Shown here in pieces: positions 5,886-8,893 of a stretch of DNA of 64,000 bases (position 1 is its first letter; the number at the start of each line of letters is the position of its first letter). The DNA is taken from positions 372,001-436,000 of the forward strand of contig NZ_LBHB01000002.1 of NCBI RefSeq assembly GCF_001010945.1. Reading direction: 5' to 3'. Origin of the DNA: Aurantiacibacter luteus. Its GTDB lineage: Bacteria > Pseudomonadota > Alphaproteobacteria > Sphingomonadales > Sphingomonadaceae. Below the pieces are notes generated by a model that saw only the letters and a program-made list of their open reading frames with translations, was not told where the DNA came from and searched no databases. Position numbers and translations under genes: made by a program.

Positions 5886-7910
5886 TCAGCGCAGGTCCGG
5901 CGGCGTCGCCTCGTCCTTCAGCATGGCGAGCGCCTCGTCGAGGCTCATCACTTTCTGGTGCTGTTCGCCCAGCGTGCGGACGGCGACGGTGCCCTCCTCC
6001 GCCTCGCGCTTGCCGACGACCAGCAGGTGCGGGACCTTCTGCAGCGAGTGCTCGCGCACCTTGTAGTTGATCTTCTCGTTCCTGAGGTCGCTCTCCACGC
6101 GGATGCCCGCGGCCTCCAGCTTCGCCGTGACCTCGCGCGCGTAGTCGTCGGCATCGGATACGATCGTCGCCACCACCGCCTGCACCGGCGCCAGCCAGCA
6201 CGGCAGGCGGCCGGCGAAATGCTCGATCAGGATGCCGATGAAGCGTTCGTAGCTGCCGAAGATCGCGCGGTGGAGCATGACCGGGCGGTGCTTCTCGCCG
6301 TCCTCGCCCACGTAGCTCGCATCGAGGCGGTCGGGCAGCACCCGGTCGCCCTGGATCGTGCCGACCTGCCAGGTGCGGCCGATGGCGTCGGTGAGGTGCC
6401 ATTCGAGCTTGGGGGCATAGAAGGCGCCCTCGCCGGGCAGTTCTTCCCAGCCGAAATCGTCGTTGTCCATGCCCGCCTCGGCCACGGCGTCGCGCAGTTC
6501 CTGCTCGGCCTTGTCCCAGTCCGCGTCGCTACCGAAGCGCTTCTCGGGCCGCAAAGCGAGCTTGACGTGGTAGCTGAAGCCGAAGTCCTTGTAGACGCTG
6601 TCCGCCAGCTGGCAGAACGCGCGGACCTCCTCGACCACCTGATCCTCGCGCGCGAAGATGTGTGCGTCGTCCTGCGTGAATTGGCGCACGCGCATCAGGC
6701 CGTGCAGCGCGCCGTGCGGCTCGTTGCGGTGGCAGCAGCCCATCTCGCCGAGCCGGATCGGCAGGTCGCGGTAGGAGGTGATGCCCTGCTTGAAGACGAG
6801 CACGTGCGCCGGGCAGTTCATCGGCTTGATCGCCATCCACGCGGCATCCGCGGCCACGGTGGGGTGCGAGCCGGCCTCGCTCTCGTCGACCTCGGGGACC
6901 ATGTCGGGGACGGCGAACATGTTCTCGGCATACTTGCCCCAGTGGCCCGAGCGTTCCCACTGGCGCACGTCCATCAGCTGCGGCGTCTTGATCTCGCGGT
7001 AGCCGGAGCCATCCATGCGGCGGCGCATATAGGCCTCGAGCTCGCGCCAGATGCGATAGCCCTTGGGGTGCCAGAAGACGCTGCCGTGCGCCTCCTCCTG
7101 CAGGTGGAACAGGTCCATCTCGCGGCCCAGCTTGCGGTGGTCGCGCTTTGCGGCTTCCTCCAGCTTGTGGAGATGCGCATCGAGCTGCTTCTTGTTGAGC
7201 CAGCCGGTGCCGTAGATGCGGGTGAGCTGCGCATTGTTCTGGTCGCCGCGCCAGTAGGCCCCGGCCACGCGCATCAGCTTGAAGGCCTGTGGATCGAGCT
7301 TGCCGGTGCTGGCGAGGTGCGGCCCGCGGCACATGTCAAGCCAGCTGCCTTCCTCGCCCGGATTGCCGGAATGGTAGACCGTCAGCTCCTCGCCTTCCGG
7401 AAGCTCCTGCGCCCACTCGGCTTTGAAGGTCTCGCCTTCGGCCTCCCACTTGTCGATCAGCTGCGCGCGTGACCACACCTCGCGCACCAGCGGCTTGTCG
7501 GCGCGGATGATGCGGCGCATCTCCTCCTCGATCGCGGGGAGGTCGTCCATGCCGAAGGGCTCGCGATTGTCCGGCGCCTTGACGTCGTAGTAGAAGCCGT
7601 CGTCCGTCGCTGGGCCGAAGGTGATCTGCGTGCCCGGCCACAGCGACTGCACCGCTTCGGCCAGCACGTGGGCGAAATCGTGGCGCGCCAGTTCCAGCGC
7701 GTCGGCCTCGTCGCGCGCGGTGACGAGTGCCAGCTCGGCATCGCCCTCGAACGGGCGGTTGAGGTCGCGCAGTTCGCCGTTCACGCGCGCGGCGAGCGCG
7801 GCCTTGGCGAGGCCGGGGCCGATCGCGGCGGCGACGTCGGCGGGCGTGCTGCCGCGCTCCATCTCGCGCGTGGAGCCGTCGGGCAGGCTGATCTTGAGAA
7901 GTTCGGTCAT
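5886..7910 (-). CDS. thrS: Threonyl-tRNA synthetase
   Basis: Charges tRNA-Thr with threonine in the cytoplasm. The 674-residue protein has the full class II architecture. The TGS domain comes first ([20 protein letters not shown] onward). The editing domain follows with the [11 protein letters not shown] helix and CRGPHLAS. Then come the catalytic core (motif 2 around [14 protein letters not shown], zinc ligands MNCPAHV and [10 protein letters not shown]) and the anticodon-binding domain at the C-terminus. The start at 7910 matches the family, while a 15-residue upstream extension in the same frame has no family support. Upstream lie a Thr-rich leader peptide gene and attenuator-like hairpins, indicating control by charged tRNA-Thr. 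Confidence 0.97.
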
Positions 7911-8003
7911 GGTCTCTCTATCCGTTCGCTCCGGCGCCATGGCACAAGCCTGCACGCGCTTGAAGCGGCGTTTGGGAGTTTGCGGGTTCGGGAGGAAACG
8001 CCA

Positions 8004-8021
8004 CCGCCCGAAACCGGGCGG
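8004..8021 (-). terminator. thrS: Attenuator hairpin upstream of thrS
   Basis: In the minus-strand transcript a perfect 7-bp stem (CCGCCCG / CGGGCGG, loop GTTT), extendable by a G-U and a C-G pair, lies just after the leader-peptide stop. It is followed by GCGTTTCCTC, a moderately U-rich run. The 5' arm (8016-8022) can instead pair over 7 bases with 8048-8054 inside the leader reading frame, giving a competing antiterminator. The U-tract is imperfect, so termination strength is uncertain. Confidence 0.6.
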
Positions 8022-8033
8022 CGCAGGGCGTGT

Positions 8034-8105
8034 CTAGAACGCGACCTGCCGCCCCCGGTTGCCCGGAGTGGTGGTAGTCGTCGTCATGGTCACACGCTGG
8101 GCCAT
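8034..8105 (-). CDS. Threonine-rich leader peptide of thrS
   Basis: A 23-codon ORF on the thrS strand, ending 123 bases before thrS: MAQRVTM, then six consecutive threonine codons (8067-8084; ACG ACG ACT ACC ACC ACT), then PGNRGRQVAF and a stop. Seven of 23 residues are threonine, the amino acid charged by the downstream enzyme, and all but ACA of the Thr codons are used. The ORF lies exactly over RNA segments that form alternative hairpins (8053-8068 and 8048-8054 with 8016-8022) ahead of a terminator-like stem. The predicted transcription start lies at or next to the ATG, so translation may be leaderless, as known for the trpL leader of Sinorhizobium. There is no Shine-Dalgarno sequence. 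Its role as an attenuation leader is inferred from this layout. Confidence 0.7.
   Translation of the reverse strand: MAQRVTMTTTTTTPGNRGRQVAF
8053..8068 (-). promoter_or_regulatory. Pause/anti-antiterminator hairpin in thrS leader
   Basis: In the minus-strand RNA, CUCCGG and CCGGGG flank a GCAA tetraloop and form a 6-bp stem (one G-U) starting within the last Thr codon of the leader ORF. It competes with the 8048-8054 : 8016-8022 antiterminator pairing. A ribosome stalled on the Thr codons would cover its 5' arm and release the antiterminator strand, as in textbook attenuators. Confidence 0.5.
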
Positions 8106-8111
8106 GCGCGT

Positions 8112-8140
8112 CACATAGGGCGCAAAGGTTTCATTGTCAC
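8112..8140 (-). promoter_or_regulatory. Putative sigma-70 promoter for the thrS leader
   Basis: Reading the minus strand, GTGACA (8135-8140, 5 of 6 to TTGACA) and TATGTG (8112-8117) are separated by 17 bases. The expected start of transcription is at about 8105, coincident with the leader-peptide ATG. The -10 match is weak (TAT only). Position and strand fit thrS control. Confidence 0.4.
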
Positions 8141-8170
8141 TAGCGCCGCTCGACCCCATGTCTGCCGGGC

Positions 8171-8893
8171 ATGACCGAGTTCCACACCGTCGACGGCCTT
8201 CGCATCGCATACCGCCACACGCCCGGCAGCGGCCCGGCTGTCGTCTTCCTGCCCGGCTACATGTCCGACATGGCGGGCAGCAAGGCGAGCGCCGTATTTG
8301 CCTGGGCTGCGTCGGCGGGCCGCGAATGCCTGCTGCTCGACTACTCGGGCTGCGGGGAGAGCGGCGGCGATTTTGCGCAAGGGACGCTGTCGCGCTGGCG
8401 CGGCGAGGTGCTGGCGCTGATCGAGGCAAAGGTGCAGGCCGAGCGCGTGGTCCTCGTCGGCAGTTCGATGGGCGGCTGGCTCATGGTGCTCGCCGGGCTG
8501 GCGCTCGGAGAGAGGCTGCACGCACTGGTCGGCGTGGCCGCCGCGCCGGACTTTTCCGACTGGGGATTCGATGAGAGCCAGAAGGCGGTGCTGCGCCGGG
8601 GCGAGACGATCTACGAGGACAGCGCCTACGGCTACGATCCCATGCCCACACACGCGAAGTTCTGGGTCGATGCCGAGGCGAACCGCGTTCTGGGTGCAGC
8701 CATCGCCCTCACCTGCCCGGTGCGCCTGCTGCACGGGCAGGAGGATGCCGACGTGCCGCCCGAAGCCTCGCTCCGCCTCGCCGCCACGCTCGCCGCAGAG
8801 GACGTGCAGGTGACGCTGGTGAAGGGCGGCGACCACCGCCTCAGCCGCGAGAGCGACGTGGCGTTGCTGCTGCATACGCTGGAGACCCTATGA
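8171..8893 (+). CDS. Alpha/beta hydrolase
   Basis: A 240-residue cytoplasmic serine hydrolase. The nucleophile elbow is VGSSMGG with Ser near residue 99. The acid lies in GQEDADVP (about 190) and the histidine in GGDHRLS (about 221). The compact size and the LLLDYSGCGESGG strand resemble ABHD10/acyl-protein thioesterase-like hydrolases, but the substrate cannot be read. There is no signal peptide. Its stop overlaps the next gene's start (ATGA at 8890-8893), so it is co-translated with the flavin monooxygenase. Confidence 0.88.
   Translation: MTEFHTVDGLRIAYRHTPGSGPAVVFLPGYMSDMAGSKASAVFAWAASAGRECLLLDYSGCGESGGDFAQGTLSRWRGEVLALIEAKVQAERVVLVGSSMGGWLMVLAGLALGERLHALVGVAAAPDFSDWGFDESQKAVLRRGETIYEDSAYGYDPMPTHAKFWVDAEANRVLGAAIALTCPVRLLHGQEDADVPPEASLRLAATLAAEDVQVTLVKGGDHRLSRESDVALLLHTLETL

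Follow-up and report, generated by a model that had tools for sequence, protein, structure and literature searches.

Upstream of thrS in Aurantiacibacter luteus, the 64,000-nucleotide stretch of contig NZ_LBHB01000002.1 analysed here (the window) carries what we read, with a probability of roughly 80%, as a ribosome-mediated attenuator of this gene, a putative element with which the cell very likely raises its output of threonyl-tRNA synthetase when charged threonine is short. As judged by comparison with relatives, its architecture is larger than that of the original prediction and consists of six arms, predicted to form two mutually exclusive sets of pairings, namely A:B, C:D and E:F versus B:C and D:E. 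The same comparison grounds the conserved Thr-rich ORF and its constant position upstream of thrS, together with the spacing of its promoter and covariation in both sets. As regards the attenuator proposed earlier, the Thr leader ORF, the exclusive stems and the leaderless transcript were borne out in this way, and the 3:4 terminator with its U-rich run was not.

Leader ORF, promoter and place before thrS

The gene, its leader and the promoter P1 were located as follows.

5886..7910, minus strand: thrS, threonyl-tRNA synthetase, with full-length relatives in 80 loci and a TIGR00418 match in its own genome
8034..8105, minus strand: leader peptide ORF thrL, 23 codons, with a Thr-rich ORF placed alike in the thrS loci of 52 of 80 relatives
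8067..8084, minus strand: six consecutive Thr codons, read in the sequence
8112..8117, minus strand: -10 box TATGTG of promoter P1, ending 6 nt before the leader ATG
8135..8140, minus strand: -35 box GTGACA of P1, with a 17-nt spacing to the -10 box that is kept in 48 of 53 loci

The start codon of thrS is the ATG at 7910, and its stop codon ends at 5886. The predicted 23-codon ORF with six successive Thr codons was indeed present on the thrS strand (8034-8105, minus), and translation of 8105-8034 gives MAQRVTMTTTTTTPGNRGRQVAF, followed by the stop codon. The leader frame stays open upstream of 8105, and the ATG at this position was taken as the leader start because of the position of the promoter and the arrangement in relatives.

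Two properties of the leader were dropped as evidence. Runs of six ACN codons numbered 14 in the own genome (overlaps counted) compared with 16 for the reversed control pattern; being about as common as this control, the Thr run does not count by itself. Global fold stability gave no signal either, with a z of -1.1 and 23 out of 200 shuffles equally stable. On the comparative data, what stands above chance is conservation: 52 of the 80 relatives have a Thr-rich ORF ahead of thrS, and the stems covary. These 80 thrS loci were fetched by protein similarity; 28 of them had no leader, and addition of the window gave 53 leader-bearing loci. With starts as set by the analyst, the leader ORFs comprised 19-25 amino acids including 5-12 Thr, and the longest unbroken Thr run varied from 2 to 9, with at least four in 49 of the 53 loci. 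The distance from the leader stop to thrS was 50-221 nt, mostly 117-169 nt (52 loci).

In 42 of the 53 loci, 6 or 7 nt separate the end of the -10 box from the leader ATG, and the top-scoring -35/-10 pair upstream of the leader had a mean score of 7.85 of 12, compared with 5.71 in mononucleotide shuffles. Because of this short distance, a transcription start at or beside the leader ATG, and hence the leaderless mRNA already proposed, appears well supported. A strict promoter and terminator scan of 7850-8250 listed nothing, P1 included.

Alternative pairings and covariation

The z values given below were obtained with an own-versus-other test, in which an arm is asked whether it pairs better with its own partner than with those of other loci (n = 51; a few columns are shared between some segments). 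The following pairings were defined in the window.

8053..8068, minus strand: hairpin A:B (earlier 1:2) with a GCAA loop; z -3.6, 94.4% of cells paired
8016..8057, minus strand: helix B:C (earlier 2:3), arms about 8057-8040 and 8031-8016; z -3.2, 95.5% of cells paired, two-sided changes in 3 of 10 pairs
8004..8021, minus strand: hairpin C:D (earlier 3:4); z 0.2, pairing in 98.0% of cells, with one pair GC in 27 and AU in 9 sequences
7987..8012, minus strand: hairpin D:E, arms 8012-8004 and 7995-7987; z -9.5, two-sided changes in 4 of 7 pairs, one pair CG in 24 and GC in 13
7967..8002, minus strand: hairpin E:F with its core arms at 8002-7996 and 7973-7967, a candidate terminator with a weak U-tract; z -7.2, 97.2% of cells paired, one pair UA in 23 and CG in 19

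The 1:2 pairing with its GCAA loop was found at 8053-8068 as predicted (CTCCGG-GCAA-CCGGGG, 8068-8053; six pairs including one G-U), as was the 3:4 pairing at 8004-8021 (CCGCCCG-GTTT-CGGGCGG, 8021-8004). For 2:3, which had been described as 7 bp between 8048-8054 and 8016-8022, all seven pairs were confirmed within the longer helix listed above. The last well-supported hairpin is E:F (7967-8002), which lies beyond the earlier 3:4.

Two alignments were used. A1 (51 rows) left out L020, which carries an insert, and L052, in which stems are deleted, while A2 (42 rows) was also made without L016, L022, L034, L037, L049, L057, L068, L072 and L076, owing to odd loops or strong divergence. In the own-versus-other test, 15 non-partner arm pairs gave z values between -1.5 and +2.3, and F with the stretch just after it gave a weak signal (z -2.2, 51 loci). 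The nearly invariant C:D showed no signal in these 51 loci. The loci beating their own median amounted to only 25% for A:B and 49% for B:C.

RNAalifold arrived at A:B, C:D and E:F of its own accord. In the 42 sequences, 97.0% of the cells of this set were paired, and 31 two-sided cells were counted compared with 10.7 in shuffles; two of five measures were reached by shuffles, namely pairs changed on both sides (40 of 500) and further pair types (250 of 500). The alternative set, B:C with D:E, had 93.0% of its cells paired and 37 two-sided cells versus 12.7 in shuffles, in a count that favours both helices, as their columns were chosen on the same alignment. In both exclusive sets, two-sided changes were well above shuffles and slid controls.

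By eye, L020 contains a palindromic insert of about 90 nt in the E:F loop, with both arms kept.

Proposed switch and end of transcription

The two sets suggest the following course of events. When charged tRNA-Thr is scarce, a ribosome would stall in the Thr run and cover arm A; B would then pair with C, leaving D free for E, and formation of D:E would block E:F, so that RNA polymerase would continue into thrS. With ample charged tRNA-Thr, the ribosome would reach the stop codon and cover B, C:D and then E:F would form, and transcription would stop near 7967-7960. It is the stalling, the order of folding, the response to threonine and the ending of transcription by E:F that we infer here. Equilibrium folding of 51 loci with a modelled ribosome edge fits this model only partly, as the fed state raised E:F in 25 of the 51 loci and lowered it in 11. 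For the window, the expected pairs of B:C (15.3 vs. 0, the zero of the fed state being given by construction) and of D:E (3.6 vs. 0.2) behaved as the model predicts, and those of E:F hardly changed (2.3 vs. 2.0).

The U-rich run that had been placed after 3:4 turned out to be weak. The tail after C:D reads TGGCGTTTCC in the window, with 4 T in the next 8 nt, and over 42 loci the mean was 2.3 T in 8 nt. After E:F, whose loop spans 22-30 nt, this mean was 2.8, and no proper U-tract was found after either hairpin in the 42 loci. Terminator-like sites with T-rich tails were about as frequent in positions 1-60000 of the window as in shuffles (3 vs. 6.8, 8 vs. 8.8 and 10 vs. 7.8). Contrary to the original prediction, C:D is probably not the terminator: it sits in a six-arm chain, and E:F appears the better candidate because D:E and E:F, both covarying, lie downstream of it. 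Since neither C:D nor E:F is followed by a convincing U-tract, the word terminator is meant here in a putative sense.

It is possible, if doubtful, that the leader and its RNA switch work as outlined and that Rho or another factor, and no intrinsic hairpin, ends transcription. The missing U-tract after both C:D and E:F would fit such an ending, and the thrS leader of Streptomyces lividans is likewise reported to have a hairpin and no U-rich stretch (PMC8079986); however, the E:F helix is precisely conserved, which Rho would not require. A four-arm, trp-type attenuator as first proposed, in which C:D terminates and the farther helices are incidental, is unlikely. The GC-rich C:D with its short loop and its almost complete pairing, along with the four T after it in the window, would suit this role, but the tail is poor in T across the loci, covariation is stronger in D:E and E:F than in C:D, and L020 keeps its E and F arms around the insert. 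We consider it quite unlikely that the switch controls translation of thrS or decay of its mRNA instead of transcription; the absence of a canonical terminator would agree with this, yet some 57 nt lie between the end of E:F and the thrS ATG in the window, and by eye no arm extends over the start region. The RGRxVAA-like tail that recurs in many leaders would suit an ORF that encodes a small protein with an independent function, RNA pairing being secondary. This reading is very improbable, since arm B, which is conserved in its pairing with C, codes for this tail, the N-terminus is variable and the checked model matches sit before thrS.

Next to the attenuator, a further conserved element was recognized.

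7937..7965, minus strand: CTTC ... TGTGCCATGG conserved element, candidate second thrS promoter P2, from the motif count over loci

The CTTC ... TGTGCCATGG motif was present in 47 of 52 leader-bearing and in 7 of 28 leader-lacking loci, at a shuffle rate of 0.0025. It directly follows arm F, and its -10 part is unusual. It may be a second thrS promoter. Tentatively, the locus could be drawn as a leaderless, his-type, family-wide thrS attenuator; it would end transcription with no U-tract and have P2 next to its F arm, in which case P2 would supply a threonine-blind floor and P1 a threonine-gated boost. A tRNA-Thr anticodon mimic at 7937-7950, such as an operator of the E. coli type would have near the ribosome-binding site of thrS, was set aside, as the TTGTGCC stretch keeps no Thr anticodon across relatives (by eye).

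Known leaders and distribution within the family

The his operon attenuator of enteric bacteria combines a run of cognate codons with A:B, C:D and E:F versus B:C and D:E. The thrS element has the same A-F chain and a cognate codon run, a likeness of topology only, for which no homology is claimed; unlike it, the his attenuator serves a biosynthetic operon and has a canonical terminator. Rfam family RF00506 is the Thr leader of the thr operon, which shares Thr codons in the leader peptide with the thrS element and belongs to another gene. In Escherichia coli, thrS is controlled by a translational operator bound by ThrRS, i.e., by protein binding and with no Thr leader peptide known, the target gene being the same. 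Neither the RF00506 model nor that of the T-box riboswitch gave a match in 7850-8250 up to E = 10 or in the window at gathering score. The Rfam matches of the window at gathering score were two tRNAs, and those in 7850-8250 up to E = 10 were three weak ones to unrelated families.

The thrL of S. lividans TK24, which precedes thrS, is reported as a short leaderless ORF of 18 amino acids with two Thr, one hairpin and no U-rich stretch (PMC8079986); it resembles the element studied here as a short, leaderless, Thr-containing ORF before thrS that lacks a U-rich stretch, by description only, and differs in its actinobacterial host, its two Thr and its single hairpin. Within the Alphaproteobacteria, uORFC-8-2 of Rhodobacterales likewise places an aminoacyl-tRNA synthetase gene under a leader peptide attenuator, in this case a Cys leader of cysS that has two Cys codons in tandem, two stems and also a U-run (PMC8632094). 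The trpL of Sinorhizobium meliloti, also alphaproteobacterial, is reported as a leaderless leader mRNA acting as a transcription attenuator, with Trp codons and trpE(G) as target instead (PMC7298713), and His leaders are described before hisS in bacilli (PMC2965389). No report of a thrS attenuator in sphingomonads was found in the open literature, among the matches listed. The putative thrS leader of sphingomonads is, on the comparative evidence, an addition to known leader-peptide attenuators such as those of S. lividans thrS and Rhodobacterales cysS; sphingomonad thrS would join the alphaproteobacterial members, with clear comparative support for both alternative RNA states, and would be suited to asking how attenuation runs when the leader mRNA is leaderless and a U-tract is absent.

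A covariance model built from A2 was searched against 396 genomes of the order and matched 139 of them, in 25 of 84 genera, with one match each and all in the family of the window. In a class sample of 289 genomes it matched 3, again all from this family; both searches used stricter filters, with which weak matches were perhaps lost. In all 33 loci of one group (L082-L114, one of them the window), the match lay before thrS with a Thr-rich ORF. Of the 21 weakest matches, 20 were checked; 17 lay before thrS with a Thr-rich ORF, one was doubtful (L115) and two were false, L117 and L120 being inside unrelated coding genes. An additional copy of the element before other genes was rejected, with a single match in each of the 139 genomes and the two matches inside coding genes being false. 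In 36 of 36 genomes listed for both the model and the thrS profile, the model match preceded that of the profile by 269-316 nt on the same strand.

A quick tree of ThrS with 81 rows calls for at least 15 changes in leader presence, compared with 23.4 after shuffling, and 7 of these changes were forced by well-supported branches. We read the element as old and its scattered absence as putative repeated loss, the tree leaving the direction free. By eye, the upstream DNA of the leader-lacking loci L015, L025, L045 and L060 looks similar and contains the start of a divergent gene, a pattern expected if the leader had been replaced with the neighbouring gene. In L052, a metagenome-assembled record, the leader ORF lies 50 nt before thrS and arms C-F are missing, through either a natural deletion or an assembly error. 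The putative natural losses and this candidate deletion would be ready controls.

In other alphaproteobacterial families, 70 thrS upstream regions, from 229 genomes with thrS, contained one clear Thr leader of different sequence (L166) and a weak candidate (L191). In L166, a Thr-rich ORF, MRTHPVLRSTATTTTTATGGRWRMRA, and then a GC-rich hairpin precede thrS (about 456-538), perhaps as an independent thrS attenuator. A DNA search in the family of L166 gave only short matches. The Thr-rich ORF of L221 was set aside, as there is no thrS beside it.

The element would also explain a conserved small ORF before thrS that one annotated record, with a gene table known to be incomplete, does not list. This is the 23-amino-acid ORF MTPMRITTTTTTTPGNRGWSVAA of Qipengyuania citrea E4 (L224), where thrS and its Thr leader are found on the 270-kb plasmid record plas1 (217968-219950), a replicon that may be essential if the strain has no other thrS copy.
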